From Nibribacter ruber (lineage in GTDB: Bacteria; Bacteroidota; Bacteroidia; Cytophagales; Hymenobacteraceae), in NCBI RefSeq assembly GCF_009913235.1, contig NZ_CP047897.1, positions 1,879,501-1,943,500 of the forward strand: a stretch of 64,000 nt of DNA, read 5' to 3'. The position numbers and the translations under genes are program-made. The notes beneath the pieces are model-generated. The model made no database searches, had not been told where the DNA came from, and was given only the letters and a program-made list of their open reading frames with translations. This document shows, in pieces, positions 44,525 to 63,319 of this stretch. The number at the start of each line of letters is the position of its first letter. Position 1 is the first letter of the stretch.

Positions 44525-44561
44525 CGAATTTCCGAAGGCAGGCTACCGCTGGAAAGGACAC
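44525..44561 (-). promoter_or_regulatory. Phage promoter family, member A (tail unit; weakest copy)
   Basis: On the minus strand GTGTCCTTTC (44552-44561), exactly 22 nt, then ATTCG (44525-44529) in place of the CTTTG of the other copies. The -7-like 8-mer is GAAATTCG. It lies directly behind a terminator and 19 nt before ATG 44505. Confidence 0.6.
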
Positions 44562-44589
44562 AAAAAAGCCCTGGCAATTGCCAAGGCTA
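44561..44589 (-). terminator. Terminator behind the unknown membrane protein
   Basis: AGCCTTGGCA / TGCCAGGGCT hairpin with T6 on the minus strand, running straight into the promoter motif. Its 24-base core is identical to the terminator at 45610-45633. Confidence 0.85.
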
Positions 44590-44614
44590 CATTATATTAC
44601 GCTATAGAAAATTT

Positions 44615-45478
44615 CTATTTATTGCCCACGGCGCTGACCTTTTCAGGTTTATTGTTCTGAGTATTAAGATGCCGTAGTTCCTCTGAGATATGTTTTTGAT
44701 ATTGGACCAGGCTGTCAAACGCAGGCTTCTGCTTTAGGTATAGTTTATTAAAGTGTTGGAGTTCTTTTGGGGTTTCGTCACGATAGGCTGACCATGCGCT
44801 CACGCCAGAGGCAATACCCGACAAAGATGAAAGAACAACTGAGGCAATGGCAACATATATTGAGATTTCAGAAACCCTTTTAGTGTTCGCTATTGCCTCG
44901 TCCTGCCGATTATTACGCATTAACTCATCCACATACACATGTCCTTCGAGTGTTAATCGTGCTATGACCTTATAGGCATATAAAGACCCAGTGTCACTTA
45001 TCCGCCCAGAATAGCCAAACGGAGGCACTTTCTCTGACTCGGTAAATAAATGGCCTAACAGCTCAGTTCTATAAGTAATCCACCCCTTTGCCTGCAATTC
45101 ATCAAGACTTGTTTTTATAGCAAACGCCTCCTCAAAGTCATCTTTTCGCAAATTGAATGTTGAGATAAGAAATGGATTAATCTCAATCCCATTATAAGAA
45201 GTATGCTTATATAGATACTTCAGTAGATCTTCATAAATATTTAAGGGCTTAAAAGTACGGGTGAAGTAATCTAATTTACCCTTGGCTGAAAGAAAATAGG
45301 CATATGTCTCCTCATTTCTCTCTAATACCCCACTTGCATGTAAGTCTTCGACCAAAGCGCCAATTTGCTGAATATCAATATCTTTAAACCAATCCTTTAT
45401 ATTTTGGATATAATAACCACCTGTTGACGGATATTTAATAATGTGTTCTATTAGATCATCTTCTGTAATGGCCTTCAT
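44615..45478 (-). CDS. Unknown AT-rich membrane protein, phage moron candidate
   Basis: A 287-residue protein of clearly lower GC than the structural genes. Two winged-helix-like segments (about 1-70 and 85-145, EDDLIEHIIKYPSTGGYYI and ILKYLYKHTSYNGI-like) are followed by one transmembrane helix (about 215-238, VAIASVVLSSLSGIASGVSA) and a coiled, charged tail. I know no family for it. Flanked by copies of the same terminator and lacking the phage structural promoter, it looks like an added cargo gene. Such membrane-anchored morons often exclude other phages, but that is inference. Confidence 0.65.
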   Translation of the reverse strand: MKAITEDDLIEHIIKYPSTGGYYIQNIKDWFKDIDIQQIGALVEDLHASGVLERNEETYAYFLSAKGKLDYFTRTFKPLNIYEDLLKYLYKHTSYNGIEINPFLISTFNLRKDDFEEAFAIKTSLDELQAKGWITYRTELLGHLFTESEKVPPFGYSGRISDTGSLYAYKVIARLTLEGHVYVDELMRNNRQDEAIANTKRVSEISIYVAIASVVLSSLSGIASGVSAWSAYRDETPKELQHFNKLYLKQKPAFDSLVQYQKHISEELRHLNTQNNKPEKVSAVGNK

Positions 45479-45602
45479 AAATAAATTTTGCTTATGCCAA
45501 GCTATATATTAATAGGCAGTTTTTAAAAATTTTCCTGACAGGGCAACTCTTTTAGATCTCTCTGGCTCCCCAAGCTCCTGAAGGCTATCATAGCGGGAGA
45601 CC

Positions 45603-45633
45603 AAAAAAAAAGCCCTGGCAATTGCCAAGGCTA
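45603..45633 (-). terminator. Duplicate terminator behind the 68-residue gene
   Basis: The same hairpin as at 44561-44589, identical over 24 bases, followed on the minus strand by a run of eight or nine T. Confidence 0.85.
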
Positions 45634-45642
45634 ATGAAGTTT

Positions 45643-45849
45643 TTATTTGAGTGAGCGGCGCCTGAGCACCAGCTGTTCATCACCGTTCTCCACTACAATC
45701 AGTTTCTCATATCCGTCACCATTCTTGGCGAACTTCAGCTTCTCAAATACTTTATTGCTCTCCGGTTCAGTTAGTCCGTCTACGTAAATCAACACTTTAT
45801 CAGAACCTTCCTTCCGCACCTGCACACTGTAAATCCCTCTGATATCCAT
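45643..45849 (-). CDS. Small unknown phage protein
   Basis: A 68-residue protein (MDIRGIYSVQVRKEGS to LVLRRRSLK) with a likely beta-alpha-beta layout: two strands, a SNKVFEKLKFAK helix, then strands. Small and Lys/Glu-rich, like anti-host or regulatory phage proteins, but no family is recognised. Its upstream gap of 59 bp is shared with the divergent HNH gene. Confidence 0.55.
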   Translation of the reverse strand: MDIRGIYSVQVRKEGSDKVLIYVDGLTEPESNKVFEKLKFAKNGDGYEKLIVVENGDEQLVLRRRSLK

Positions 45850-45908
45850 AGTAAGCTTAGTTTACTTATTAGCTTGTAATCCTGATATTAGCTTAACTTA
45901 AATATACT

Positions 45909-46454
45909 ATGATACTAAACATAGACCTATTGCCAAATGAAGTTTGGGAAACACCAATTGTAATAAGGAGCAGTCAGGTGTTAAGATTCACAAAGTACCT
46001 GGTCAGCAATAAAGGAAGGGTTTACTCCCTTGTTAATGAAAGCTTAATGAGTTTAAATAGCAGGGTGCGTGGGTATGTTTCCGTAAATCTAATGATGCAG
46101 AAAGGAAAATATGCAACCATTACAGTGCACCGTCTAGTTGCAGGGACTTTTATTGAGAATCCAGAAAATAATACTCATGTTAACCACAAAGATGGTGTTA
46201 GACATAACAATAATGTAGAGAACTTAGAGTGGACTACCTGCAAAGACAATATTAATCATGGTCACACTAGAAGGAGGAAGTTCACAGATAAAGAACTAGC
46301 TACGCTGCTTAAAGATAGGCCAGACCTATATAGCGCAGTACTGGAAATGAAACAGTATTTATTAGAAAAGAAGGTTTTTGGAGAAGGTCCAATATCACCC
46401 ATCTGTATTTCCTATTCGATAGAAAAGAGAGATTATAACATAAGAATTGAATAA
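45909..46454 (+). CDS. HNH homing endonuclease with NUMOD4 motif
   Basis: A 181-residue free-standing homing endonuclease. The N-terminal NUMOD4 motif reads LPNEVWETPIV; the middle has SNKGRVYSL. The HNH nuclease (about 73-118) contains VHRLVAGTFI, NHKDGVRHNNNVENLEW with His93 and following Asn residues as metal ligands. It is the only plus-strand gene in the phage region, and AT-rich. It would cut specific DNA lacking the insertion and spread by repair. Confidence 0.88.
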   Translation: MILNIDLLPNEVWETPIVIRSSQVLRFTKYLVSNKGRVYSLVNESLMSLNSRVRGYVSVNLMMQKGKYATITVHRLVAGTFIENPENNTHVNHKDGVRHNNNVENLEWTTCKDNINHGHTRRRKFTDKELATLLKDRPDLYSAVLEMKQYLLEKKVFGEGPISPICISYSIEKRDYNIRIE

Positions 46455-46733
46455 CTAATCAATCTGCACAATTCTACTTTGGGAGTTCTGATGATCAGTT
46501 AAGGCGGTGAGGAAAAGCTGCAGAGCATTCATGGCCGCATAGTCTGCGGCCCAGTCAGAGATATGCTCTGGGTCACGCTTTACGGCGTTGAACACCAAGT
46601 TATTCACAAGACCATGTAAACTTGCCATGTCTGGTACCAGATGCATCAGCTGGATCAACGCGCCCATGGTATTATCGGTAAGCTCTGGTTGGTTGTGGAT
46701 GACGAAGGTGTCACCGACTTTGGAGATGGCCAT
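46455..46733 (-). CDS. Small unknown phage protein
   Basis: A 92-residue protein from ATG 46733 (MAISKVGDTFVIHN), largely helical after the first strand. A longer frame to 46886 adds a basic stretch that reads through GC-rich inverted repeats and is doubted; ATG 46808 is another option. Its stop is adjacent to the HNH stop (46454/46455), so the two genes converge with no spacer. No function can be assigned. Confidence 0.5.
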   Translation of the reverse strand: MAISKVGDTFVIHNQPELTDNTMGALIQLMHLVPDMASLHGLVNNLVFNAVKRDPEHISDWAADYAAMNALQLFLTALTDHQNSQSRIVQID

Positions 46734-47023: not shown

Positions 47024-47058
47024 AAAAAGCCCTCAGCTAATGAGGCGAGGGCTTTTTG
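47023..47058. terminator. Terminator behind the spanin-like gene
   Basis: Twelve-bp outer stem CAAAAAGCCCTC/GAGGGCTTTTTG; both strands have T-rich 3' arms, so it may act in both directions. Confidence 0.85.
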
Positions 47059-47085: not shown

Positions 47086-47706
47086 CTAATTGAGGAGGTA
47101 AACCGTAGTAGCTGCCCCGGCAATGAAGCCGAGGCCAAGCCAGACGCCGGTGCGCCTCCTGGGCACCTCAACCGAAAAACTCTGCAGGTCGGTCACCGTG
47201 GAATGCGGGTTAAGATTTCGGACCATTACTTCTAAGGTGGTAGGTTTGAAAATGCCGTTGGACCTGCTCACCTGAAATATCTCCAGTTCATTCCTGACTC
47301 GGTAATCCAGCGTGGGATGTTCTTTTTGTAAGTCTATGCTGGCGTTTATCCATTCATCATTGAAGGCGAGAATAGATTTGGAGGCCGGGTCTGGCGGTGA
47401 GGCGTCCACAATACCGATGGTCTCTACTGCCACCACGGTTGCGGTCTTGGTGCCGGTGCCTACTTTCCTCACTGCCTTGCCCAGCTTGGTTTCCTGACGG
47501 CCCACGGCTTTTGCGGAATTCACCTGCAATGGCTTGCTGGCCGTTTCCACGCCTTTGGCATCTTCTTTCTTAACAATCGGCTCATACTGAGACTGAAGGT
47601 TGGCCTCCGTCTGCCTTCGCTCACTGATGGAAGTGAACAAACCTGAGCAGACCACCAGCAGCGCAATCAAGAGCGCGGAACCAGCGGCAATCACATAGTT
47701 TCTCAT
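47086..47706 (-). CDS. Spanin-like/membrane-anchored phage lysis accessory candidate
   Basis: A 206-residue protein with an N-terminal transmembrane helix (about 4-25, VIAAGSALLIALLVVCSGLF), a Lys/Glu/Thr-rich stalk, a central folded part, and a short C-terminal hydrophobic segment (about 190-205, WLGLGFIAGAATTVYLL). Being the next gene after holin and endolysin, it may help disrupt or bridge the envelope like a spanin. There is no clear lipobox or sequence match, so this is a position-based guess. Confidence 0.5.
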   Translation of the reverse strand: MRNYVIAAGSALLIALLVVCSGLFTSISERRQTEANLQSQYEPIVKKEDAKGVETASKPLQVNSAKAVGRQETKLGKAVRKVGTGTKTATVVAVETIGIVDASPPDPASKSILAFNDEWINASIDLQKEHPTLDYRVRNELEIFQVSRSNGIFKPTTLEVMVRNLNPHSTVTDLQSFSVEVPRRRTGVWLGLGFIAGAATTVYLLN

Positions 47707-47746: not shown

Positions 47747-47783
47747 CAAAGGTTGTCACTGGCCGCACTTTCAGAAAGGACAC
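47747..47783 (-). promoter_or_regulatory. Phage promoter family, member E (spanin-like gene)
   Basis: On the minus strand GTGTCCTTTC (47774-47783), 22 nt, CTTTG (47747-47751); 8-mer AACCTTTG. It is 40 nt before ATG 47706 and begins five bases after the endolysin stop, with only a T5 run and no strong hairpin between. Confidence 0.75.
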
Positions 47784-47788
47784 AAAAA

Positions 47789-48472
47789 TCACAGCTGCTT
47801 CAGGAGCCGCAAAGCCTTCAAAAAATCGGCGGCGTAGCTGGCCACTTTTGCCGCTTTGTCTGATCCGTTAATGATGGCCCGTGCACTGGTGAAGTCACAG
47901 GATTTAGTGGTGATGAAATGAGAGAGTTTCCTAGTGGTGAACCATCCGTCACGCATGCCCACCACCAGGGTGTTCACGGCAATGGGAAGCTCTGCGATTC
48001 GCTCTGGGTGGGCAACCAGGTCAACGCCCACGGCCGTGCCGGCGCGCCTGTAGTTGTCCTTGCCCGTAGTCTGGCAGAAATCGCGGCCGCGAAACTTCCA
48101 ACCTTCACCTGAGGCCTCATTGCCGTTGCCCATTCTGTTACAGTAACAGTTGTTTGCAATCGCCTGAGGCTTGTGGGCCAGTTTCTTGGCCAGTGCGTTG
48201 GGTACCTTCACTTTCGCCTTGGGATCCACGGCATAGCGGCCGGGCCAGTTGTTGGCCAGCCCCTGCGCTGAGTAGTTCAGGTTTTCACCCGTTGGCACCA
48301 TCCCCTCACCCACTTCATGGAAGACGGTGGCCAGCACGTAGGCAATCTGCTCCAGCTGGGTGACGCCCCGGTCTTTGCAGGTTTTAACGATCAACTCGAT
48401 TGCGGCCACCGCCGACTGCGGAATGGAGTTGCCGAACAGGGCAACCCGCACGTTGTCAAAGAAGGCTTTCAT
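47789..48472 (-). CDS. GH19 chitinase-like endolysin
   Basis: Phage lysozyme-type enzyme of 227 residues that would cut the peptidoglycan glycan strands at lysis. GH19 hallmarks: AYVLATVFHEVGEGM with catalytic Glu53, GENLNYSAQGL with Glu63, CNRMGNGN, and GWKFRGRDFCQTTGKDNYRRAG. There is no signal peptide, so export depends on the holin. It overlaps the holin by one base. Confidence 0.92.
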   Translation of the reverse strand: MKAFFDNVRVALFGNSIPQSAVAAIELIVKTCKDRGVTQLEQIAYVLATVFHEVGEGMVPTGENLNYSAQGLANNWPGRYAVDPKAKVKVPNALAKKLAHKPQAIANNCYCNRMGNGNEASGEGWKFRGRDFCQTTGKDNYRRAGTAVGVDLVAHPERIAELPIAVNTLVVGMRDGWFTTRKLSHFITTKSCDFTSARAIINGSDKAAKVASYAADFLKALRLLKQL

Positions 48473-50241: not shown

Positions 50242-51585
50242 TTAGGAGGTTTCCTGCTGCACCTGCTTGCCTTTGTCCAGCGTCATGATGAGTGGGTTCT
50301 GGATCCGGAACACCGTGTTGGGGTTCCAGCCGTTGACGTCCCTTACCGTGTAAAGCGGTTCCAGCACCAGTTCCTGCTGGAATTTGGAGGTAGAGATGAA
50401 GTTGTTGAAATGCACGCGGGCGTCTGAGCCGGAGCCCGCGCCCATGCTCTTGCCGGGCGTGATACCCATGAGCACCGGAGCCAAGCCCACGGCGGTCAGA
50501 ATATGGGAAGAAGCCTCCTGAGAGTCTTCCACATAGATGCCCGATTGCAGCTTGTCATCAACGGCCTCTACTTTGAAAGCCGCAATGGTCTCACCAGAAT
50601 CAAGTGTGATAGTAGTAGTAAGAATGGACTTGCCTGCACCGTCCGTACCGGCCATCACTTTGTCAAAAGTCTCGAGTTCATCACCGATAATAAGTTTGCG
50701 CTGGTCCTCAGACTTCTCATCCCAGTCTTTGTATTTCCACACCCAGTAGGCAGAGTGCACAGAGACGATGTATTTGATGGTAAGCTGGTTTTTGAAAAGC
50801 TGCTTCTTAAACTCTGGGATGGCCTGCGCCACCTCCAACCATCCGGAGCGGCGAACGCTGTTCCAGGAAGCCAACTGATAAGCGCATTTGTCCGGCGATG
50901 GAATGGAGATGGGATAAATGAACTTGTCTTCGCCTGACTCCAGAATCTGCGCAACCGGGTCATCATACGGGTCCAGTACGCTCACGCTCTTCAAACCGTC
51001 GATAGAATCAGACTTGTCCCAGTTGCCGTTTATGTACAGGCGCTCAAAAATGCCACTGGTGGGGTTTGCCTTTGAATAGCGGCTGAAAGTGGCCTCCTGC
51101 GAGGTAAGGCGCACGATCTGGGAGCCGTCACGCGATTTGACAAACTCAGGAAAGGAGTTGGCAAACCAGGACAGATCCATAAAGGACTCATAGCCGTAGC
51201 GGAGGATGTTGGTCTTTCTGAAAAACTCATCAATGGCCGTGTCCTTGGTGCGCTGGAATATCTCATTGCCAGCATCATCATAACCGGTAATCTCACCGTA
51301 GGTAATGCCACCGGCGTGCCATAGGGCTGCGCGGCGCTCAAGAACGGCAGGCAGGATGGTGTTCTTCTCTGCCTCTTCACGCACGTTCTGCGGGAACTTG
51401 TTATCATCTCCCCACTTCTCAATGTCGCCACCGCCGTCTGCCTTCTTGGTGGGTACGGTGGGCGTTCCCATGTCCCGGCCCTTACTGCCTGCGTTGGCGG
51501 CAGACAAGGCGCTGCCGGTTTTGAAGACGCTGCGGGAATTGGACCCGAAGAACATGGTGCCTGAGCTATTGGCTATAACCGTCAT
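50242..51585 (-). CDS. Phage portal protein
   Basis: Forms the dodecameric ring through which DNA enters the head. The 447-residue protein has the wing/stem pattern of phage portals: IEKWGDDNKFPQNVREEAEKN near the start, ILRYGYESFMDLSWFANSFPEF, WLEVAQAIPEFKKQLFKNQ, and the C-terminal channel region GSGSDARVHFNNFISTS with FQQELVLEPL. It overlaps the preceding stop by one base (TAATG). Confidence 0.85.
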   Translation of the reverse strand: MTVIANSSGTMFFGSNSRSVFKTGSALSAANAGSKGRDMGTPTVPTKKADGGGDIEKWGDDNKFPQNVREEAEKNTILPAVLERRAALWHAGGITYGEITGYDDAGNEIFQRTKDTAIDEFFRKTNILRYGYESFMDLSWFANSFPEFVKSRDGSQIVRLTSQEATFSRYSKANPTSGIFERLYINGNWDKSDSIDGLKSVSVLDPYDDPVAQILESGEDKFIYPISIPSPDKCAYQLASWNSVRRSGWLEVAQAIPEFKKQLFKNQLTIKYIVSVHSAYWVWKYKDWDEKSEDQRKLIIGDELETFDKVMAGTDGAGKSILTTTITLDSGETIAAFKVEAVDDKLQSGIYVEDSQEASSHILTAVGLAPVLMGITPGKSMGAGSGSDARVHFNNFISTSKFQQELVLEPLYTVRDVNGWNPNTVFRIQNPLIMTLDKGKQVQQETS

Positions 51586-51929
51586 TAGATAATTACTTTA
51601 AGGTCGTTGAACTGGGTGATAAGGAAGAGGTGCACGGTGCGCGTCTGGCCGTTGCCGAGGATGATGTTGCGGGTGGCGTTGGCGAAGTGGTTGGGGTTTT
51701 TCTTGGACTTGGCAGGCGATTCTGAGTCCACAGGAAAATCTTCCTGTGTCTCTGCTGAATTGGTTTTCCCTTTTCTGCCCACGCTGGTCATGGTGACGCC
51801 ACGGCGCACCTTGCGCTCACCACCGGTCTGTTTTTTCTCATTGGCGGTGAAGTGCACAATGTCGAAAGGCTCACCCTCCTCCATTTTTTCCAGCGCATCC
51901 GCAAGCCGTATGATTCCCTTTCCTTTCAT
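51585..51929 (-). CDS. Small basic phage protein
   Basis: A 114-residue protein from ATG 51929 (MKGKGIIRLADALEKMEEGE). Very rich in Lys and charged residues in the middle (KKQTGGERKVRRG, ESPAKSKKNPNH), with a hydrophobic C-terminal strand. An extension to 52055 would read through the phage promoter and so is rejected. It is first in the portal transcript; function not recognised. Confidence 0.65.
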   Translation of the reverse strand: MKGKGIIRLADALEKMEEGEPFDIVHFTANEKKQTGGERKVRRGVTMTSVGRKGKTNSAETQEDFPVDSESPAKSKKNPNHFANATRNIILGNGQTRTVHLFLITQFNDLKVII

Positions 51930-51936
51930 AGTAGCC

Positions 51937-51973
51937 CAAAGTTCAGGCGCGGCGGTGCGTGCGGAAAGGACAC
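51937..51973 (-). promoter_or_regulatory. Phage promoter family, member C (portal unit)
   Basis: On the minus strand GTGTCCTTTC (51964-51973), 22 nt, CTTTG (51937-51941); 8-mer GAACTTTG. Only seven bases separate it from ATG 51929, so the transcript is leaderless or nearly so. It is preceded by T6. Confidence 0.8.
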
Positions 51974-52020
51974 AAAAAACGGGAACGGGTATTTTAGAGG
52001 GTATTGGTTGTTTAGTGGCA

Positions 52021-52045
52021 ACTTTCCAGAAAACAGGCCAAAAAC
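52021..52045. repeat. Half-palindrome of the host family in the phage
   Basis: Right arm CCAGAAAACAGGCCAAAAAC without a matching left arm, between the terminase and portal units. A remnant of the 38-bp family. Confidence 0.6.
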
Positions 52046-52216
52046 CCAGTCTCAAAAATTTTCTGGCAAAACCGCGTCAGTTTTCCCGAAACCAAAAAAA
52101 ACGAGGCCCGGCCAGATTTCGCAGTCTCAAAATGCGGATTCGCACCCCGGCCTTGCTCTAACGCGTGGCGGCAGTTGCCACCCCCTAATCGGGGGATATA
52201 TGACCGGCGACCCCAA

Positions 52217-52279: not shown

Positions 52280-53941
52280 CTACCTGGTCACCACCACCAG
52301 GTCAGCGAAGTTGCCACCCCTTCTGATCACGTGCTTGTCTATGCTGACCAGATGCAGGTCCACGGTATCAGTGTAGTGGGTAGCCTCCTGAGCCGGCGTT
52401 GAGGCGCGGCCCTCGCTGCTCTTGTCTTTAGCAATCTGCCCATCCCTGCCCTCACGCACCGGCGCCATGGTCAGTGCCGTGAGCACGTCCTTGCAGTGCA
52501 CCTTATTGAACCTGATCTTAGGCAGGCGCGGGTTCTTCTCTGAGAACATCTCGTGGGCCAGGTGATACCTGGCTTGGTGCCTTGGCATACGACCCAGCTC
52601 CACCTTGGTCACTGTCCAGCCCCGCTTCTTGAGACACTCCATGAACTGCTGGTTATAGGACAGCTTAGAGTCTGCGCGCCTGTGGTCACCGTGCTCCTTG
52701 TCCGGAATGAAGAAGATCTTCTTATTGAGATGGTAGGCATAGTAGTCGCAGAACTCTTCGGCCAGGTCACTGATCAGCTTAGGGTGCTTCACATAGAAGC
52801 CCTTCAGGAACCTGTACTCCGGGCTTAGGTCCTGAGCCACGGTAAGGGATGATATCTTGGCCCCCCAGTCCACGGCAAGGCGCAAGGGCTGGCTGCTCAC
52901 ACAGTCACCGTCCATGCGGCTGTCTGCAGTAGTGAGTTTGTCCAACTGGTAGTTCAATCCCTCCAGGTAGGCATCATTCTCAAACTGGTTATAGGTGTGC
53001 TTCTTCAGGCTAAGGGTTGGGTAGAAGCCGGCCTCTACCTTTCCCGGCCGCTGGTTGAGCACCTCCATCAGGAACACGTACTCGGTAAGCGACTCACGCT
53101 GCTGCTCCAGGTATTTGATGCCCAGGTTTCTCAGGTTCTCAAACGCATTGGCCTCAGAGTAGAGCAGGCCCGTTGCCGGGTCTGGGTAGAACTTCAGTTC
53201 CTTGCTAAGGCGGTTGATGTCCTGCCACAGCTTTTTCCTGAACTCAACATCCTTATTATCTATGAACTTCAGCTGCAGGTCAATCATCTCATTCTGCAGA
53301 GTGATGAAATCATAGCCTGCCTTGATATAGTGCTCCCCTCCCTTCAAAAGCCAATGGCTGGCGTCATAGGGCATGGAACTGAAGTGGAATTCCCCATGGT
53401 GCAGACGCTGGTTTTTGAAGAAGCGGCGGTTACCGCGCAAAGTAGGCAGCACCTCCCTATCATACTGGTCTTTGTTGATCAGCAGGGACTCATCCGAGAT
53501 ACTGCCGTCAAAGTTACCCCCACGGGCGCTGGTGGCCCCGCCGTCCTGACTTACCATCTGAAACACCACGCCTTCCTTCCAGAAGTAGATGCAGTGGTCG
53601 TATTTCAAAGGCGGTTCATAAGGCTCAATGGCCTTCCACGTTTTGGGCGGTCTTCTGCCCACGAAATAATGCACGTCTTTATAGAGGCCCAGTCTGGCGA
53701 GAGAACCGATCGTACTAGGAAGCGTGACAGTCAATAGCTGCTGGAAAGTAGAGCCGAGGATCACCCACTTGCTTCTGGGAAGCGTTTTGATGATCAACAG
53801 GATCAGCCAGGCAATGATGGAAGACTTGCCGGTGGCACGCCCCCAGAGGCAGATGGAGGCGGCAAACTTACTGACAGCGAAAAGAAGCTGGACCCGGTTA
53901 AGGTCCAGCTTCTTAGACTTTGGCTCTGGGCTACTCATCAT
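52280..53941 (-). CDS. terL: Terminase large subunit
   Basis: ATP-driven motor and nuclease that packages phage DNA. From ATG 53941 it has 553 residues. The Walker A-like GRATGKSS (34-41) opens the ATPase; GNFDGSISDESLLI may carry the Walker B/DE region. The C-terminal RNase H-like nuclease has LAVDWGAKISS (Asp ligand), FIPDKEHGDHR and MAPVREGRDGQIAKDKSS. The start overlaps the small subunit stop by 11 bases; a GTG at 53980 would overlap more. Confidence 0.85.
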   Translation of the reverse strand: MMSSPEPKSKKLDLNRVQLLFAVSKFAASICLWGRATGKSSIIAWLILLIIKTLPRSKWVILGSTFQQLLTVTLPSTIGSLARLGLYKDVHYFVGRRPPKTWKAIEPYEPPLKYDHCIYFWKEGVVFQMVSQDGGATSARGGNFDGSISDESLLINKDQYDREVLPTLRGNRRFFKNQRLHHGEFHFSSMPYDASHWLLKGGEHYIKAGYDFITLQNEMIDLQLKFIDNKDVEFRKKLWQDINRLSKELKFYPDPATGLLYSEANAFENLRNLGIKYLEQQRESLTEYVFLMEVLNQRPGKVEAGFYPTLSLKKHTYNQFENDAYLEGLNYQLDKLTTADSRMDGDCVSSQPLRLAVDWGAKISSLTVAQDLSPEYRFLKGFYVKHPKLISDLAEEFCDYYAYHLNKKIFFIPDKEHGDHRRADSKLSYNQQFMECLKKRGWTVTKVELGRMPRHQARYHLAHEMFSEKNPRLPKIRFNKVHCKDVLTALTMAPVREGRDGQIAKDKSSEGRASTPAQEATHYTDTVDLHLVSIDKHVIRRGGNFADLVVVTR

Positions 53942-54572
53942 CTTCGTCTTTTTCAGTTTCCTCATGCTCCCAGCTGTCACCGAGTCCCTGCTGTTGCACA
54001 GAATCCACCACTAACTCATAATCCGTCTCTGGGATGTTCTCCAGATTAATGACTCTGCTGGTACCAGTGGCGGTCATTAACTGCATCACATACGTGTGGG
54101 CCTCCATCAACTCAGCATCATAGCCGTTCACATCGGTCTGGTCAAGGCCTTTGAGCATGGCCATGTTCTTGATGGCGCGGTTCATGGCACCCAGGTCAGG
54201 CGGTCTCTGGGTGGCCGCAAGCTGGAACACCTTCATGCTGTACTCATACAGGATGTGGCGAAGACCCTGCTTGCTCACCTGCGTCACGTCACCGAAAAGC
54301 TGTGTGCACTGGTTGATCACACGGTAAGCGGTGGCCCGACTGATCTTGAACCGGGAAGTAAGCAGAGGCACCGCCTGCTCAAACGAGTGGTATTGCACCA
54401 ACAGCCCCCAAGCCGCCTCCAGCTGCTCACGCACTTCTTTGTCCTTTTCAGAAAGCAGCAGGTCACCATCCTCCTCAATGTAGGAATTGTAGATGCGGTC
54501 AAGCCGCGTGTCATTCTTAGGCTTCGGGATTAGCGAATCCGGCAAGCTGCTCGTGATTAAGCTCTTCTCCAT
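53931..54572 (-). CDS. Terminase small subunit (putative)
   Basis: A 213-residue helical protein with a helix-turn-helix in RFKISRATAYRVINQCTQLF (about 72-92) and an acidic C-terminal tail (EHEETEKDEDDE), as in DNA-recognising terminase small subunits. Its position right before the large subunit supports this. It overlaps the methyltransferase end by 56 bases. Confidence 0.75.
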   Translation of the reverse strand: MEKSLITSSLPDSLIPKPKNDTRLDRIYNSYIEEDGDLLLSEKDKEVREQLEAAWGLLVQYHSFEQAVPLLTSRFKISRATAYRVINQCTQLFGDVTQVSKQGLRHILYEYSMKVFQLAATQRPPDLGAMNRAIKNMAMLKGLDQTDVNGYDAELMEAHTYVMQLMTATGTSRVINLENIPETDYELVVDSVQQQGLGDSWEHEETEKDEDDE

Positions 54573-55788
54573 TTCTCAATACTTTATAGGGTAGATTGTT
54601 CTCTTGCATGTATTTGACCCACCGGCGCACGTGCACGTCCACATAGCGAGGATCCAGTTCCTGACTGTAGCACTGGCGCTGCAGCTGCTCACAGGCGATC
54701 AACTGGGAGCCTGAGCCGCCGAAGCCGTCAAACACGATGTCCCGGCGCTGCGAGCTCTGCTCCAGCATGTAAAGCAGAATCGGGATGGGTTTCATGGTCG
54801 GGTGCTCTGCATTGCGGGTGGGCCTGTCAAACTCCAGCACCGTGGTCTGTTTCCGGTCAGAATACCACTTATGCGCGGCGCCTTCCTTCCAACCATACAG
54901 AATAGGCTCATGCTTCCAGTGGTAGTCCTGCCGGCCCATCACCATGGAGTTCTTCAGCCACACAAGGCACTGGCTTAGTTTAAGACCCGAGTCCTTTAAA
55001 GCGGTTCTGAAGTTGGCTCCTTCTGAGTCTGCGTGGAAAACATAGATGGGAGCGCCTGCCTCCATGAACAGATAGCAATTGGTGTAGAAGTCATGCAGGA
55101 ACTGGAAGAAGGAAGAGTCATCCATGCTGTCATTCTCAATTTTGAGAGACTCCTTGGTCTTGCCTTCATAGTTCACATTATAGGGCGGGTCCGTGATCAC
55201 CAGAGCCGCCAACTGGCCGTTCATGGTCTTGGCCACGGCATCGCTGTCAGTGCTGGAGGCGCAGTGCACGCGGTGGGTGATGCGCTTGCTTGGACTGATG
55301 AACTCATACAAGTCGCCTTCCACAGAAACAGGCACGCGAGGCAATACCGGCTCAAAATCAGACTCCTGCTCTGGGTTCAGTTCCTTCATAAGGGAGTCTG
55401 GCATCTTGAACTCTTCCACGTTCAAGCCAAGGCCGGCAAGGTCAATGTCTTTGAAAATATCCTCCAGCACGTCAGTGTCCCAATGCCCGATCTGAACATT
55501 GGAGCGCACGTTGTATTCCTTCAACTCAAGCTCAGTGAGCAGGCGGTTAGGGTAACGCACGTCAATCAACTCCTCACCTCTCTCCAAATCAAAGAGAATC
55601 TTCAGGCGCTGGTGGCCGGCAATGACGGTGCCGTCCTGGTTGATCACCGGTATTTCCACTAAGTTGAATTTACCGATGGACTCGGCCAGTATCTGGCGGC
55701 GCTCCGGAGTCAGGATGCGCGGGTTGTACTCATAGGGAATAAGGTCAGAGACGCGGCGCTGCACCGTGCTCCAGATTAAATCAGTCAT
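54517..55788 (-). CDS. ParB-domain DNA methyltransferase (orphan)
   Basis: A 423-residue fusion. Residues 1-100 are a ParB/Srx-type domain (LIPYEYNPRILTPERRQILAES, VIAGHQRLKIL with GHQR at 58-61). Residues about 155-420 are an N4-cytosine/N6-adenine methyltransferase, with DPPYNVNY (200-207) before FDGFGGSGS (353-361), the beta-class order. No restriction enzyme is adjacent. It sits in the same transcript as terminase; modifying phage DNA before packaging could protect it from restriction on entry. Confidence 0.92.
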   Translation of the reverse strand: MTDLIWSTVQRRVSDLIPYEYNPRILTPERRQILAESIGKFNLVEIPVINQDGTVIAGHQRLKILFDLERGEELIDVRYPNRLLTELELKEYNVRSNVQIGHWDTDVLEDIFKDIDLAGLGLNVEEFKMPDSLMKELNPEQESDFEPVLPRVPVSVEGDLYEFISPSKRITHRVHCASSTDSDAVAKTMNGQLAALVITDPPYNVNYEGKTKESLKIENDSMDDSSFFQFLHDFYTNCYLFMEAGAPIYVFHADSEGANFRTALKDSGLKLSQCLVWLKNSMVMGRQDYHWKHEPILYGWKEGAAHKWYSDRKQTTVLEFDRPTRNAEHPTMKPIPILLYMLEQSSQRRDIVFDGFGGSGSQLIACEQLQRQCYSQELDPRYVDVHVRRWVKYMQENNLPYKVLRNGEELNHEQLAGFANPEA

Positions 55789-56398
55789 TTTGGGTTTGTT
55801 TTAAAAGTTGCGAAACAGTATTGATCTTTTCCTCCAGCGCCGGCAGTTCTGCCTGGCGTTTCGGGTTTTTGCGAAGTTTGGCGCGTAGGGCACGCATGTT
55901 GAGCAGCTCTTGCTTGAGTTGGGCGCGGTCTGCTATCTGGGAGAAGTCGGTGGGCTGCTCTTCAGGTTTCTCCAGATTGAAATAGATGGCGGTGATTAAT
56001 TTAGTAAGCTCCACAATGCGTAGGCAGTGAAACAGTCTAGTCATGGGACCAGCGTACTCAAGCTGGGCATGGAGCATGGTCCGCTCATCCAGCAAAGCAC
56101 GCAGCCGACCGTTCACCTCTGGGTGAGGCGCTTTTGTGACGTTTTCCGGGGTTTTTGTGACAGTTTTCGGCCTATTTTGTATAAAAGAGCTTGAAACCGG
56201 TGCGGGTTTAGCTGTAGGTAAACTCTGCTGCAGCAATTCCTCCAGTGCAGAGCGCAGCTTCTTTTTGGAGAAGGAATACTCCCCTTTGTTGAACAGGTCT
56301 TTGAGTGCCTGGTTGGTACCATGGCACGCATACAGCGCGGCACCGTCTTGGAAATTGCCGCTTGTCTCTAGCCAGACTTTAATGCCCTCATACTTCAT
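55781..56398 (-). CDS. Unknown phage protein heading the terminase unit
   Basis: A 205-residue helical protein from ATG 56398, which lies four bases from the -7 element. N-terminal ETSGNFQDGAALYACHGTN, a Pro/Thr/Lys linker (about 62-85), and a Lys/Leu/Glu C-terminal coil. I know no family. Overlaps the methyltransferase start by eight bases. An extension to 56461 runs through the terminator and promoter and is rejected. Confidence 0.65.
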   Translation of the reverse strand: MKYEGIKVWLETSGNFQDGAALYACHGTNQALKDLFNKGEYSFSKKKLRSALEELLQQSLPTAKPAPVSSSFIQNRPKTVTKTPENVTKAPHPEVNGRLRALLDERTMLHAQLEYAGPMTRLFHCLRIVELTKLITAIYFNLEKPEEQPTDFSQIADRAQLKQELLNMRALRAKLRKNPKRQAELPALEEKINTVSQLLKQTQND

Positions 56399-56402
56399 AG
56401 GA

Positions 56403-56439
56403 CAAAGGTGCGGCCGGCAATTGCCGCTGGAAAGGACGT
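56403..56439 (-). promoter_or_regulatory. Phage promoter family, member B (terminase unit)
   Basis: On the minus strand ACGTCCTTTC (56430-56439; GT replaced by AC), 22 nt, CTTTG (56403-56407); 8-mer CACCTTTG. Four bases before ATG 56398, so leaderless. It runs directly out of the T run of the preceding terminator. Confidence 0.75.
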
Positions 56440-56472
56440 AAAAAAAGCCTGCATGAGTCATGCAGGCTTTAG
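56440..56472 (-). terminator. Terminator behind the capsid/tube unit
   Basis: Thirteen-bp perfect stem AAAGCCTGCATGA/TCATGCAGGCTTT with a one-base centre, T7 on the minus strand, fused to promoter B. Confidence 0.9.
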
Positions 56473-57224: not shown

Positions 57225-57244
57225 TAATATGGTCTCCTTTCAAA

Positions 57245-57595
57245 CTATGATTTAACAACTGGGCTTAGGATGCCAGACTTCTTCTCCACCAGTAGAGAAA
57301 GCAGCTCTTTGTCAGCCACCAATTGAGCAGCGGTAACGTCTTCATCTTTCTCTGGATGCTGGAACTTGGCACAGTTCACCTGATACTGGACGCCTTCATG
57401 CGTTACCACCGGAAGCACTTTGCCTTTAGCGGCCTCTGCGTCTTCCAACGCCACCAGTTGCTCATCAATGATGGCATCCTTTGCCGCCAGCTGCTCTTTC
57501 AGCAGCGCAATCTCCTGCTCTGGAGTAAGCTTTACTGCCTGCTCCGGTGCAGGCTTGTTGGTCTGCTCTGTGGCAGGTTGATTATTTTTTGCCAT
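57245..57595 (-). CDS. Unknown capsid-module protein
   Basis: A 116-residue protein. N-terminal Gln/Pro/Thr-rich stretch with Glu-rich coiled-coil (TPEQEIALLKEQLAAKDAII), then a beta-region KVLPVVTHEGVQYQVNCAKF. Lies directly behind the capsid gene, so a capsid decoration or head-completion protein is possible. Not recognised. Confidence 0.55.
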   Translation of the reverse strand: MAKNNQPATEQTNKPAPEQAVKLTPEQEIALLKEQLAAKDAIIDEQLVALEDAEAAKGKVLPVVTHEGVQYQVNCAKFQHPEKDEDVTAAQLVADKELLSLLVEKKSGILSPVVKS

Positions 57596-58650: not shown

Positions 58651-59085
58651 TTAGTTGAACAAAGGGTTGTCTGCCAGAGCCTTGTTATGCTCCAACTCTG
58701 CCATGGCTTTGGCGTTTTCATCTGTGCCTTCGGTCAACTCCGTGCCGTCCTTAGACACAGATGTAGATGAGGCGGCAGGCTTTTTGCCAAGCTTTGCGTT
58801 CTCCGCTTTCAAAGAGGCAATCTCCGTGTTGGCGGTTTCCAAAGCAGTGTTGGCAGTGGCCAGGTCAGCAGTAAGCTGAGTTTCGTTGGCTACAGAAGCA
58901 GTGAATGCCTCATGCTGCTCAACAGTGATAAGGGCGGCGCCTTCAATGCCAGCGGCCTCCAACTCATCATTGGCGGCGTCTACCATTTCAGCGGTCAGTT
59001 CTTCGCCTTTCTTGCCGGCTAAAGCAGTCACAGCGGCGAAGGCAACGGTTGCCTCGGCCACTGGTTTTTTTGAGAAAATTCCCAT
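58651..59085 (-). CDS. Possible nested in-frame scaffold protein
   Basis: A 144-residue product if translation starts at the internal ATG 59085. The region just before it encodes a Gln/Pro/Asn/Thr linker and is AT-rich (CAAATACTACA), which suits Bacteroidota initiation. The product would be an Ala/Glu/Thr coiled-coil scaffold, in analogy with lambda Nu3. Inference only. Confidence 0.35.
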   Translation of the reverse strand: MGIFSKKPVAEATVAFAAVTALAGKKGEELTAEMVDAANDELEAAGIEGAALITVEQHEAFTASVANETQLTADLATANTALETANTEIASLKAENAKLGKKPAASSTSVSKDGTELTEGTDENAKAMAELEHNKALADNPLFN

Positions 59086-60018
59086 TGTAGTATTTGAATT
59101 AGGTTGGTTTGCGTTTTCGGTGCCGGTCTCGGCTCTGGCCAGTTCTGCCGCACGCTGCACAGCGTACTCAAAAGTGCCCATCTCATCTGCGAGGCCGTGG
59201 TCAATGATGGCCTGCCCGACGTAGACTTTGCCTGTCAGCACGTCCTCTGCCTTCAGGTCAAGTTTTCCTTCTCTGTTCTCTTGCACAGAAGAGGTAAAAG
59301 CCGCGTTGAGCGGGTCCAACTGCGTTTTCTGAAGCAGCTCATATTTGCCCTTCAGCGCCTGCAGGTAAGGCTCGTTCTTGTCTTTGGAGTCAGTGGCCCG
59401 TATGGTGTGGGTCTTGATGCCGAACTTCTCATAGTAGGCGCTGTAATCGGTGATGGTGGTCATGGTACCGATGCTGCCCACCATGGCGGTCTTACCGGAG
59501 GCAATGATCAGATTGGCGTTGGATCCAGACCAGTAGGCGGCAGAGCACATGAGTTCCGCGAAAGACACGAAGGGTTTCTGGGTGCCGGCGATAAGTCCTG
59601 CGAAGCGCTCAGTGCCTGCCACCGTTCCACCGGGAGAGTTGAAAATGCCGACGTGCGCAATGATGTTCTCATGCGCATCGGCCTCCTGGATCCAGCGGCC
59701 CATGGTAGCAGTGCCAGGCGCACCGCAGAAGTCCTCGGTCATCATGGGACCTTCCACCCTGTGAATGGCGATTGAGCCGGCAGGCGCGTCATCATAGCTG
59801 GAGAAGCTAGACATGAAGCTTCTCTCAGAGGAGGATAGGCCTTCCACAATGGCCATGGCCACGACTCTCGGCGGTTTCTCCTCCTTTTCAGCAGAAGCAG
59901 TTTCCGGGCCTTTTCTCTCCATCATCTGGAAAACCATGGCCAAATAGGACTCGGCGGCATGTGGCTCAATGGCCCACGCGTCACGGAGAACAGCGGAAAG
60001 AACTTTGTTGAATTGCAT
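58651..60018 (-). CDS. S49-family prohead protease fused to scaffold domain
   Basis: A 455-residue protein. Residues about 75-285 are a ClpP/SppA-type S49 serine peptidase with the oxyanion strand NSPGG (127-131) and catalytic Ser159 in CSAAYW, followed by GSIGTM. Residues 312-455 are a Glu/Ala/Thr-rich coiled-coil scaffold-like part. ATG 59085 (residue 312, MGIFSKKP) may start a separate in-frame scaffold protein after an AT-rich stretch, as in lambda C/Nu3. First gene of the capsid unit. Confidence 0.88.
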   Translation of the reverse strand: MQFNKVLSAVLRDAWAIEPHAAESYLAMVFQMMERKGPETASAEKEEKPPRVVAMAIVEGLSSSERSFMSSFSSYDDAPAGSIAIHRVEGPMMTEDFCGAPGTATMGRWIQEADAHENIIAHVGIFNSPGGTVAGTERFAGLIAGTQKPFVSFAELMCSAAYWSGSNANLIIASGKTAMVGSIGTMTTITDYSAYYEKFGIKTHTIRATDSKDKNEPYLQALKGKYELLQKTQLDPLNAAFTSSVQENREGKLDLKAEDVLTGKVYVGQAIIDHGLADEMGTFEYAVQRAAELARAETGTENANQPNSNTTMGIFSKKPVAEATVAFAAVTALAGKKGEELTAEMVDAANDELEAAGIEGAALITVEQHEAFTASVANETQLTADLATANTALETANTEIASLKAENAKLGKKPAASSTSVSKDGTELTEGTDENAKAMAELEHNKALADNPLFN

Positions 60019-60044
60019 CGGGATACCGGTAATAAGTTTCGATG

Positions 60045-60081
60045 CAAAGTTGAACCTGTCTTAGGGCTGTGGAAAGGACAC
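60045..60081 (-). promoter_or_regulatory. Phage promoter family, member D (capsid unit)
   Basis: On the minus strand GTGTCCTTTC (60072-60081), 22 nt, CTTTG (60045-60049); 8-mer CAACTTTG; 26 nt before ATG 60018. It begins directly at the T run of the preceding terminator. Confidence 0.85.
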
Positions 60082-60108
60082 AAAAAAGCCCCACCGAGTG
60101 GGGCTTTT
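60082..60108 (-). terminator. Terminator behind the tail-fibre unit
   Basis: Ten-bp stem AAAAGCCCCA/TGGGGCTTTT with a 5-nt loop and T6, directly after the stop codon at 60110 and fused to promoter D. Confidence 0.9.
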
Positions 60109-60109
60109 C

Positions 60110-60649
60110 CTATACTTTTATAAGCGATTCAATCTTGAAACTACAAGTTACTCCTATCCCCTGCTTAGTGGTGAACACACCCACCTCCTCAAAATAAGGA
60201 TCCGTCAGAAAGGCGCCGGGAGTATAAAGCCACGGGTTAGGCCGGTAGCCGCAGATGGCGCTGAACTCTGAGCAGAACCAACCAACCCAGCGCCTGAGAA
60301 CGCCAGTTCTTCCGTTCCAAGTCCACTTAAGGCCCAGTTTCCGTGCAATCAACTGAAATAACATCATCACCAGGTCAAAGAAACCGTAAGGCTTACTTTC
60401 TTTTGGCAAGTCAAATGGTCCCAGAGGCTTAAGTACCTGCACACGACGGTTGGTTTTTTTCAACCATTCGTCAAGTTCTGTCTTCTCCCTTCCCTTGGCC
60501 GTCATTTCATACACGTGGCCATTAATCAAGTTAGCCGTGTGGTTTGGCCCGTTGAGCACCAAACGCAGAAACAGGCTGAAAAGGCTAAGAAGGAACGCCT
60601 TCACAGAAGACGCGTCCAGCGAGTTTGTGATGACAAAGACCGCTTTCAT
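60110..60649 (-). CDS. Permuted papain-like (YiiX/NlpC-P60-type) amidase candidate
   Basis: A 179-residue protein from ATG 60649, immediately after the preceding stop. It has NHTANLINGHVYEM (a His near the start) and later WFCSEFSAICGY with a Cys. In permuted NlpC/P60 (LRAT/YiiX-like) enzymes the His precedes the catalytic Cys in this way. It may act on peptidoglycan or lipid substrates during entry; the assignment is based on motif order only. Confidence 0.5.
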   Translation of the reverse strand: MKAVFVITNSLDASSVKAFLLSLFSLFLRLVLNGPNHTANLINGHVYEMTAKGREKTELDEWLKKTNRRVQVLKPLGPFDLPKESKPYGFFDLVMMLFQLIARKLGLKWTWNGRTGVLRRWVGWFCSEFSAICGYRPNPWLYTPGAFLTDPYFEEVGVFTTKQGIGVTCSFKIESLIKV

Positions 60650-60650: not shown

Positions 60651-61142
60651 CTACTGGTTGTTTTCATAAAAGTCACCCCTTGCCTGCATTTTCATCTCCT
60701 CGGTCTGGACAATAGGCGTACCGTCGTCGTTGAAGACGCGGTTCGCCTTCGGCTGGCGCATCACGGCCCTCACAAAGCCGTTCTCGTCAAACTGCCCGAA
60801 CACGTCGCCGAACATCATGGTGAAGGTGGCGGCGTCCTGACCGTTAGTCCTCACCTGCAGCGTCCCGAACAGCGGGTGCGTCCTCTGGGGCATGGCGTTG
60901 GGAAGCTGGTTGCCGTTGCTGTCGAACAGGTCCCACTCGAAGGTGGTCAGAATGTACGACAGGTGACCCTTCCCAGGCTTGTGGTGGATCTCCTTTTTTA
61001 TCGGGTAGAACCGGCCCACCAGCCCGTTGGCGTAGGGCGTTCCCTCTTCGATATACTCCACAAACTCACCGTCTGCGTCAATTCCCTTGTAGAAGGTGTA
61101 GGGCAGACCCTCGTACACCTTCTCTACTTTCATTACTGCCAT
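60651..61142 (-). CDS. Unknown phage tail-fibre-unit protein
   Basis: A 163-residue beta-rich protein, with YILTTFEWDLFDSNGN, HPLFGTLQVRTNGQDAATFTMMFGDV. It has no recognised family, but lies between fibre genes and the amidase candidate. Could be a fibre chaperone or a baseplate piece. Confidence 0.6.
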   Translation of the reverse strand: MAVMKVEKVYEGLPYTFYKGIDADGEFVEYIEEGTPYANGLVGRFYPIKKEIHHKPGKGHLSYILTTFEWDLFDSNGNQLPNAMPQRTHPLFGTLQVRTNGQDAATFTMMFGDVFGQFDENGFVRAVMRQPKANRVFNDDGTPIVQTEEMKMQARGDFYENNQ

Positions 61143-61154
61143 GGCGTGTATAAA

Positions 61155-61721
61155 TTAATAAGGTACAAATGTTGCGGTGCCGGGAACGGTGGCCACCAAG
61201 CCCTTCAAAGTATCGTTCAAGTCATCCTCCAAAAGGAAATGTGACTGGATGGAGGCGGCGAAGGCCCGGCTGTTGAGCTTCAGGTCCTGCCGCTCCTGAA
61301 TGGTGAGCGGGGCCGAGTAGGTGCGCAGGTCGGCTATCCTGCGCTGCACGAACTCCACGTCCGTGAAGCGGCTGCTGATGCGCAGGGTCGCCGTCTGCGG
61401 GTTGACGAACTCCACGTATACCCGCGCCCAGGTGTTGAGCAGCCCTGACTCGGGGCTGGAGCTGGTGCTGTCCACGTCGTTGTAGCTGATCTTGCTGGTG
61501 CCCACGCTGGTGCTTTTGATGACCAGTGCGTCACCGCCCGCCCGGGCGTCCAGCAGGTAGTGGTTGGTGGTCATGGCCGCCGTGTTGATCCAGAAGGAGA
61601 CCGCCCTACAGCTGGTGATGGGCACCTTCAGGTTCTGGTCCACGCCGTTGAGCTGCAATGCGCCCAGCAATGCCAGGTTGCCCGGGCTGGGTTTGACGAT
61701 TCCGTGCTGCGCTGTTATCAT
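61155..61721 (-). CDS. LamG/concanavalin-like tail-fibre protein candidate
   Basis: A 188-residue protein with a beta-sandwich pattern: ISCRAVSFWINT-like (SCRAVSFWINTAAM), YLLDARAGGDALVIKST, WARVYVEFVNPQTATLRISSRF, and IADLRTYSAPLTIQE. This resembles laminin-G/concanavalin-like lectin domains used for glycan binding in phage fibres. Overlaps the upstream fibre gene by four bases. Confidence 0.6.
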   Translation of the reverse strand: MITAQHGIVKPSPGNLALLGALQLNGVDQNLKVPITSCRAVSFWINTAAMTTNHYLLDARAGGDALVIKSTSVGTSKISYNDVDSTSSSPESGLLNTWARVYVEFVNPQTATLRISSRFTDVEFVQRRIADLRTYSAPLTIQERQDLKLNSRAFAASIQSHFLLEDDLNDTLKGLVATVPGTATFVPY

Positions 61722-62620
61722 GCCGTCAGGTCCCCCGCTACCGTGGCCACCGCGGCGCTCTCAAAGAAAATGGTGAAGGTGGCCTTCTGCTTCCTGGACT
61801 TGAGGAACCCGTCCGGGTGGTCCAGGGTGACGCCGCCCGTGGTGGTCAGGTTTATCTGGCCGGCGCCCTTCTGCTTGACGATGCACTGGAAGCCCGCGCC
61901 CAAAGCCCCTACTGAGAGCGTGTTGCCGCTGGCGTTGTCTACCAGCACCAGCGCCCCGTTGTGGGCGGCGGTCAGGACGTTGGCCGTGCCGGTGAGCGTG
62001 AAGACGCTGAGGCTCTTGTCTGCCTTCAGTCCCTGCCCTGTCTTGAGCTCGTTGATGGCTGCCACCAGCGAATCCTTGGCGGTGGTGGCCAGGTTGCCAA
62101 GCGTGCCTATCCAGCCACTTAAGATGCCGCCTTGCTTGGCGCTCAGCGCATTCGTAGCGCTCACACTGGCCAAGCTATCCTCTACAATGATATTGGAGAG
62201 TACCGACAGCTTGCTTTTCTCAGCCAGTGTGTAGTTCTCGTCAGAAAGCTGTTTGGTGCCAGACTTATCTACTTTCAGGCTTAAGGCACCCTCTGCAGAA
62301 GTGATCCTAGATTCAAGACTGGCCACGTCCAGGTATTTCTCCCAGTAGGCCGTGTTCTGGGTCGGGGCAACTGCGCTGTTGAAAGCCATTTTTACTCTCC
62401 AAAGAACGTTGCCAGAAAGCCAGTAGGTGTCTGCCTCCTTGGCACCGTCTTCATAGACGCCCTTGAACTTACCGGTAAGGCCGGCAAGCTTTGGTGCGAT
62501 GCCGTCCACGGCAAGAATTATGGCTGTGCGGATCTTGCCCACATCGGTCCCCCCCTGTTCCCCTGAAATAAGTTGCGCGGCAATGGATGCCTTCAGTTGC
62601 GCTATTTCTTCTGCTGTCAT
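61718..62620 (-). CDS. Phage tail fibre protein
   Basis: A 300-residue protein with the fibre motif SLASVSATNALSAKQGGIL (about 150-168), widespread in tail fibres with repeated SATNALSAxQG. An N-terminal helical anchor (EEIAQLKASIAAQL) and a beta-rich C-terminus (LTGTANVLTAAHNGALVLVD) with no chaperone site seen. Overlaps upstream and downstream genes by four bases each. Confidence 0.75.
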   Translation of the reverse strand: MTAEEIAQLKASIAAQLISGEQGGTDVGKIRTAIILAVDGIAPKLAGLTGKFKGVYEDGAKEADTYWLSGNVLWRVKMAFNSAVAPTQNTAYWEKYLDVASLESRITSAEGALSLKVDKSGTKQLSDENYTLAEKSKLSVLSNIIVEDSLASVSATNALSAKQGGILSGWIGTLGNLATTAKDSLVAAINELKTGQGLKADKSLSVFTLTGTANVLTAAHNGALVLVDNASGNTLSVGALGAGFQCIVKQKGAGQINLTTTGGVTLDHPDGFLKSRKQKATFTIFFESAAVATVAGDLTA

Positions 62621-63261
62621 ATCAGTATTTTAAACTCCAGTGTGAATTCACTTTCGATGGAAAGGGTCTCTCCAGGCTGCACAATTTTCACCACCTCACC
62701 GTTGAACATCACCTTGATAGGTTCACCGGATCCAGAGCCTGGCACCGGTGGGTTGGCCTCTCCCAGATCAGTGACCTCAAAGTTTCCTGAGTAGAAGAAA
62801 GCCGGGAATATGCTCTCGGCCTTGAAGCCAGCGGCATAAGCATTGTTTCTGGAAGGCGAGTCACCGGAGGCGTACTTGTACTCAAAGCCCAGTGAAAAAT
62901 CTCTGTGGCCAGAGAATTTGAGGTAACCGTTAAAGTCCCGGTGCAGCACCACATACCGGCCGCGCATGATTTTGTAGAGCAGCTGGGCCAGTTCGGGTGT
63001 GTCTTTTGGGAAACTCCCCTTCAGGTCATGGTTGTAGTAGATGCCGCGCTGGTCCTGCTTGGGCACTAGATTGAAGCCTGCAGAGTCTCTGGTGAATACC
63101 AGCATGCCCCAAGTGGCCCCTTCCTTCAGCACAATGTCGCCGATCAGGCGCAGACCGTCCGTATCTGGGAACTGGTCCCAGTCAATGTTTGAGTGGGCGG
63201 TATAGAAGACCGCCTCAACACCACCCATGTTGTCTGAGTCAATCTGCAGGATGTTGTCCAT
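62617..63261 (-). CDS. Unknown phage fibre/base protein heading the fibre unit
   Basis: A 214-residue protein from ATG 63261, with beta-rich sections, e.g. EGATWGMLVFTRDSAGF and GYLKFSGHRDFSLGFEYKYASG. The C-terminal region (GNFEVTDLGEANPPVPG) looks like a linker plus strand. No family recognised. An extension to 63285 would start inside the promoter. Confidence 0.6.
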   Translation of the reverse strand: MDNILQIDSDNMGGVEAVFYTAHSNIDWDQFPDTDGLRLIGDIVLKEGATWGMLVFTRDSAGFNLVPKQDQRGIYYNHDLKGSFPKDTPELAQLLYKIMRGRYVVLHRDFNGYLKFSGHRDFSLGFEYKYASGDSPSRNNAYAAGFKAESIFPAFFYSGNFEVTDLGEANPPVPGSGSGEPIKVMFNGEVVKIVQPGETLSIESEFTLEFKILI

Positions 63262-63282
63262 AATAGGGAAAAGATTATGGGG

Positions 63283-63319
63283 CAAAGGTCACACGCGCAG
63301 GCGCATTCAGAAAGGACAC
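63283..63319 (-). promoter_or_regulatory. Phage promoter family, member F (fibre unit)
   Basis: On the minus strand GTGTCCTTTC (63310-63319), 22 nt, CTTTG (63283-63287); 8-mer GACCTTTG; 21 nt before ATG 63261. It follows the terminator at 63352-63384 by 32 bases. Confidence 0.8.

Follow-up and report, generated by a model that had tools for sequence, protein, structure and literature searches.

At the middle promoters of phage T4 (MotA box, AsiA), the box of an activator replaces the -35 element and the host sigma factor still reads the downstream box. Phage late activators include Mu C/Mor, P2 Ogr and those of the RinA/ArpU type. Here, we analyse a stretch of 64,000 nucleotides of Nibribacter ruber (contig NZ_CP047897.1, positions 1,879,501 to 1,943,500; termed the window, to which all positions refer unless noted otherwise). 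It contains six minus-strand copies of the element GTGTCCTTTC-N22-CTTTG or close variants of it. To judge from their sequence, these sites are probably late promoters of the host RNA polymerase, in which the -33 element is replaced by the box of a phage activator, read by a protein of 186 amino acids (aa). For the primary sigma factor of the Bacteroidota (sigma-ABfr), the accessible part of the source gives a promoter with TTTG at about -33 and TAnnTTTG at -7 (PMC7366714). In the open-licence literature, no paper was found on a class of late promoters in Bacteroidota phages, nor on this box, the protein family or its reach.

The octamer GTCCTTTC is present in the window in the six minus-strand copies only and nowhere else on either strand. 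All six copies are situated in the late region of a prophage of ~41.8 kb, which is integrated at tRNA-Arg. A previous reading made from the letters alone (the sequence-only reading) had placed six copies on the minus strand at just these positions, which was confirmed. Exact matches are copy 1 (63283-63319), preceding the gene 62617-63261, copy 2 (60045-60081), preceding the gene of the head maturation protease (58651-60018), copy 4 (51937-51973), preceding the portal operon, and copy 5 (47747-47783), preceding the gene 47086-47706. The other two have the variants described before: copy 3 (56403-56439), which heads the operon with a ParB-type methyltransferase and the terminase, reads ACGTCC, and copy 6 (44525-44561, two mismatches), which precedes the gene 43663-44505 and the tail module, has ATTCG at its -7 end. 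When up to two mismatches were allowed, seven matches were found in the window versus a mean of 0.17 and a maximum of 3 in 100 dinucleotide-preserving shuffles. The seventh match (57232-57268, GTCTCC..CTTAG) is on the plus strand and points in the opposite direction to the other six. An equivalent weaker match (3 mismatches) is found on the opposite strand in the prophage of Rufibacter roseus, and we take the plus-strand match for a coding chance. In the whole genome (one contig, 4,352,178 bases), the exact pattern occurs four times, always inside the prophage; at up to two mismatches, 33 matches were obtained versus 16 for the pattern read backwards.

Terminator-like hairpins on the minus strand directly abut four of the six copies, namely copy 2 (60082-60110), copy 3 (56444-56470), copy 5 (47789-47812) and copy 6 (44567-44588), which supports the proposal that the copies head separate transcription units. 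The copies are all intergenic, provided that gene starts lie past the boxes. In a mechanical list of open reading frames (ORFs), three entries overlap a copy (43663-44577, 51585-52055 and 55781-56461), and each has an in-frame ATG after the box, at 20 nt, about 7-8 nt and about 4-5 nt, respectively.

Motif and spacing are kept in relatives, and more widely than in the related prophages which the sequence-only reading had suggested to search. Six of 204 genomes of Hymenobacteraceae have the exact pattern. Same-strand copies with up to three mismatches were found in the prophages of Rufibacter latericius (3, on a contig which stops within the prophage), R. roseus (6) and Hymenobacter pini (5), and R. 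roseus has an orthologous ATTCG copy matching copy 6. Further matches at this threshold, off-strand or elsewhere, number four in R. latericius (two on the minus strand), three in R. roseus (a pair on the plus strand, and another that falls beyond the late region) and none in H. pini; they need no explanation beyond chance. Two other genomes (G135, G139) have a single exact match each without a surrounding cluster. A broad pattern with the T-run and Y at both ends, TTTTTGTGTCCTTTY-N22-YTTTG, was found in 71 stretches of IMG/VR viral contigs, compared to 6 for N21, 2 for N23 and 2 for the reversed pattern. Among 84,980 species genomes, 66 stretches were obtained, 53 in Bacteroidota (one being a tandem repeat, L086) and 13 in others or unassigned. 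The motif is also present in prophages of Hymenobacter, Spirosoma, Flavobacterium, Zunongwangia, Aquimarina and Bacteroides. In the isolated Polaribacter phage Leef_1, the coding strand carries six TGTCCTTT boxes and the opposite strand none, with 0.36 expected on either; all six lie 40 to 70 bases ahead of a gene of the morphogenesis region. The motif is, as read from these comparisons, a real and widely conserved predicted class of late promoters.

Within this class, only GTCCT and its distance are invariable, and the bases flanking this core vary with the subfamily of the candidate activator. The first T of TAnnTTTG is absent from all six window copies, as claimed before, but this is a local trait only: in nearly all Bacteroides copies seen, the final eight bases are TAnnTTTG. 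These relatives have, by sequence, a normal -7 box and the replacement is limited to the -33 element, hence the departure that matters is the one at -33. There, all six window copies have TTTC instead of TTTG, and relatives have TTTY.

The candidate late activator gene (63468-64028, minus strand; L032:3468-4028:-) is contained in the window up to 64000, with its start codon at 64028. It is located just upstream of copy 1, where early genes give way to late ones, and is common to four related prophages, along with structural genes and a gene for an HTH_17 protein. The AlphaFold2 model of its 186-aa product has a mean pLDDT of 89, and the C-terminal part (about 92-151) may be helix-turn-helix-like, according to weak matches only. 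Searching Pfam-A with 27 members of the protein family, no family fitted more than two members (best E 0.0038) and no sigma family was among the matches; NCBIfam and PHROGs gave one weak match each. A database search with a profile of these 27 sequences (A3) retrieved 268 proteins at E 1e-5, and among the 120 matches listed, two are named 'transcriptional regulator' and all others 'hypothetical protein'. In Leef_1, the unannotated protein Leef1_39, encoded just before the capsid genes, is the predicted structural homologue (BFVD rank 1, TM 0.69/0.81). The suggestion of the sequence-only reading, that late genes depend on a phage-specific activator or sigma adaptor, is also the best reading here, now with a concrete candidate. 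A degenerate box, AAGTCCTTTC-N22-ATTTA (4 mismatches), is found ahead of the candidate gene at 64051-64087 (L032 4051-4087), slightly beyond the window, at a threshold where chance matches are common.

The protein is associated with the motif. Among 37 genomes or records with the motif, a profile of six sequences (A1) matched in 18. Profile A3 matched in 25 of 43, which were mostly those missed or weak with A1, plus new ones; three doubtful motif bearers of the A3 set (G242-G244) gave no match. Of 24 IMG/VR records searched, the protein is encoded in all 12 motif-bearing records of at least 30 kb and in 3 of the 12 shorter ones. The match usually shares contig and strand with the motif and precedes it; in Spirosoma (G208), one motif copy comes before the protein match, and in Bacteroides xylanisolvens (G207), whose prophage has lost this part, matches lie elsewhere. 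Among the 204 family genomes, A3 gave 64 matches in 47 genomes, two of them halves of one gene in R. latericius (G134). All loci except those of G000, G138 and G134 were taken (60 loci, up to 20 kb downstream each, whether or not the motif was known there; 1,057,090 bases). On the protein's strand, the motif was found 41, 54 and 32 times at 0, 1 and 2 mismatches (127 in total), versus 0, 0 and 3 times on the other strand. Since A3 was built from motif-bearing genomes, the count was repeated for 40 loci from genomes missed by the motif scan and resulted in 20, 31 and 25 matches (76) versus 0, 0 and 3. Sites with a normal box (class A) or with the box CGTCCTA (class B) were present on the protein's strand in 34 of these 40 loci and on the other strand in one. 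The exact pattern GTGTCCTTTY-N22-YTTTG occurs in 27 of 47 genomes with the protein versus 20 of 157 without (p 2.4e-9), and at least two exact copies in 23 of 47 versus 2 of 157 (p 2.6e-15), but as the genomes are related, these p-values are overstated. Copies totalled 79 with the protein and 23 without, and the backward pattern occurred 13 times over all 204 genomes. The 23 copies are somewhat above this control and some look like phage copies (G121).

A different phage protein as the reader of these late promoters, for instance the product of 62617-63285 or a partner of the 186-aa protein, is unlikely. Iterated profiles for proteins of at least 80 aa were compared over ten distant phages, in which structural and packaging genes and the gene 62617-63285 proved to be widely common. 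To the right of the late region, the candidate is the only widely common gene (9 of 10 phages; the next reaches 3 and the integrase 4). The gene 62617-63285 is common to the same nine phages, but is located behind the first late promoter and, therefore, is itself late. The HTH_17 protein (72157-72489) is common to near relatives, yet it is found in none of the ten distant phages.

Box and protein have diverged together. Among 22 loci selected because normal sites were rare or absent, the protein's strand has 28 cases of GTCCTA at 30 nt ahead of YTTTG, and the opposite strand has none. In the remaining 38 loci, GTCCTT is found at this distance 92 times on the protein's strand and, again, not once on the opposite one. 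Using one rule for all 60 loci, sites are present on the protein's strand in 54 and on the other strand in 2; 40 loci are of class A, 14 of class B and 6 of neither. In a quick tree of 71 rows, whose deeper joins are unsure due to long branches, the 14 class-B rows form one side of a branch (SH-aLRT 98), and the class of the box changes once compared to a mean of 13.0 after shuffling. Accordingly, the class-B box was found only with one clade of the protein. Class-B boxes often lie just before and just after the activator gene (near positions 220 and 790; L299-L301, L305, L321, L324, L328-L331, L334 and L335), which suggests autoregulation.

A host factor, i.e., an alternative or extracytoplasmic function (ECF) sigma factor or a host activator, might read the boxes and be exploited by the phages, with the 186-aa protein having some other task. 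The box is indeed spread over hosts of one phylum, in which ECF sigma factors are common according to the accessible parts of two sources (PMC9723704, PMC7366714). This explanation is nevertheless improbable. Exact copies in the host genome are confined to the prophage, and the -7 box of the Bacteroides relatives is that of the primary sigma factor. Furthermore, the two classes of box are found together in four genomes (G037, G102, G110, which is a metagenome-assembled genome, and G114), where each class is accompanied by a different subfamily of the phage protein. This coexistence speaks for a specificity determined by the phage.

Spacing and start codons were counted in the 60 loci retrieved by the protein family. 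For 88 of the 145 occurrences of GTCCTTTY on the protein's strand, YTTTG comes 22 nt later, and no other distance between 12 and 35 nt was seen; on the opposite strand (n=19), YTTTG follows in four cases at scattered distances. Of the 126 class-A sites, 50 have their first ATG exactly 4 nt past the box and 2 have it nearer; among the 32 class-B sites, it is at 4 nt in 8 and at 0 nt in 3. The -7 box is published at -12 to -5 in the part of the source available (PMC9723704), thus an ATG 4 nt past the box begins at +1, and transcription would start at the fifth base after TTTG. Such an ATG at +1 contrasts with the rarity of leaderless transcripts or very short leaders in the phylum, where, according to the accessible parts of both sources, leaders below 10 nt make up 3.7% (PMC7366714) and leaderless transcripts 5.5% (PMC9723704). 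Single operons keep traits of their own. In the operon of the window gene 55781, 24 of 29 copies have C at the second position and 25 of 29 an ATG at 4 nt, and in three other operons the second position is T in 91 of 91 copies. ACGTCC in copy 3 is, therefore, an inherited trait of its operon. In the leader of the protease operon (60018-60044) and its orthologues in L284-L341, an inverted repeat CATCG..CGATG is often found between -7 box and start codon. At 43 class-A sites, the first ATG is 15-24 nt past the box; in 25 of these leaders, it pairs with the first nine bases, compared to 126 of 860 shuffled leaders. This repeat may be an RNA hairpin or a DNA operator.

The terminator-like hairpins abutting four of six copies, as well as a T-run ahead of 95 of 126 class-A sites, could point to an element which acts in RNA or elongation (antitermination or read-through of terminators). 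This is very unlikely, given that the T-run is lacking before all 32 class-B sites and copy 1, that the box is followed at fixed spacing by a -7 element with start codons right after it, and that no Rfam match was found. Least probable of all is that the element serves packaging, replication or structure at the DNA level without being a promoter, since, though repeated, phage-wide and strand-biased, it precedes genes, points along transcription and keeps the operon-specific traits given above.

In the favoured reading, the promoters would be used by the RNA polymerase of the host, whose primary sigma factor would read the -7 box, which is nAnYTTTG here and TAnnTTTG in Bacteroides relatives. 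TGTCCTTTY would take the place of the usual -33 TTTG, with the core GTCCT at about -39 to -35. The 186-aa protein would bind this box at the promoter edge and recruit or hold the polymerase, so that the operons for morphogenesis and lysis are switched on together, and terminators ahead of most copies would isolate the operons. Several observations weigh against it. Six of the 60 protein-bearing loci are without a strict site of either class, and the boxes of Leef_1 have poor -7 elements. Solved structures support the helix-turn-helix of the protein by weak matches only. In six motif-bearing Bacteroidota genomes (G209, G211, G223, G227, G229, G230), no family match was found at E 0.01, the match in G222 is doubtful, and those in G219 and G226 are on other contigs only. 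Among the ten distant phages, the candidate is no more widespread than the structural genes and the gene 62617-63285, hence the association is in part explained by inheritance of the late module as a unit. More tentatively, and at somewhat short of an even chance, the 186-aa family may be a new class of specificity factor which replaces the divergent primary sigma factor of Bacteroidota in making the -33 contact. This would be a separate invention of sigma appropriation, common to phages whose hosts range from Bacteroides of the gut to marine and soil bacteria. It would comprise two or more box specificities (TGTCCTTT and CGTCCTA), which are found side by side in one host genome.

A direct repeat of 19 bp delimits the prophage. 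Its left copy, the left attachment site (35998-36016), coincides with the 3' end of tRNA-Arg (35940-36014), and the partner is outside the window at 77755-77773; the integrase gene (76257-77600) is outside as well. From right to left, the late genes encode the head maturation protease (minus strand; PF01343 and phrog_53), the ParB-type methyltransferase, the terminase large subunit (52280-53980, minus strand; phrog_2), a portal-like protein (50242-51585, minus strand; weak match to phrog_11226, common to 10 of 10 distant phages), a DUF6712 protein, holin, endolysin and the tail length tape measure protein (36123-39128, minus strand; phrog_27166 and others). The gene labels given before were broadly right, but 'spanin' was not confirmed. 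The terminator stem AGCCTTGGCAATTGCCAGGGCT is present twice (44567-44588 and 45611-45632) and flanks the gene 44615-45478, which is absent from three compared relatives and looks like an inserted cargo gene. A protein of the tail module (41054-43126) has SprB repeats, known from gliding adhesins of the hosts. An amidoligase gene (64395-65327, PF12224) lies outside the late operons here and its Hymenobacter pini counterpart (G063:C8:307124-308107, region L055/L054) inside the late region.

With this widespread box and its likely reader, late operons, start sites and working prophages could be recognised from sequence in a phylum that dominates in the gut and the environment. The two box/protein pairs could serve as expression tools, and late-gene timing in Bacteroidota phages becomes directly testable. 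A phage activator replacing a -35-type element is, by analogy with MotA, a known kind. The proposed promoters share with the T4 MotA/AsiA system an activator box instead of a -35-type element and a downstream box left to the host sigma factor. They differ in box and spacing, in serving late rather than middle genes, and in that the proteins are not related in sequence at the level of Pfam families. Like Mu C/Mor, P2 Ogr and RinA/ArpU, the candidate is a small phage protein at the early/late border which would switch on several late promoters; unlike them, it has its box at the -33 edge, belongs to another phylum and gives no sequence match. Leef_1 resembles the window in having a structural homologue ahead of the capsid genes and six boxes on one strand, and differs in its -7 boxes. 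Compared to the sigma-ABfr promoter, the -7 box of Bacteroides relatives and the distance of the -33 element are alike, whereas TGTCCTTTY replaces the -33 TTTG and the box is found in phage late regions.

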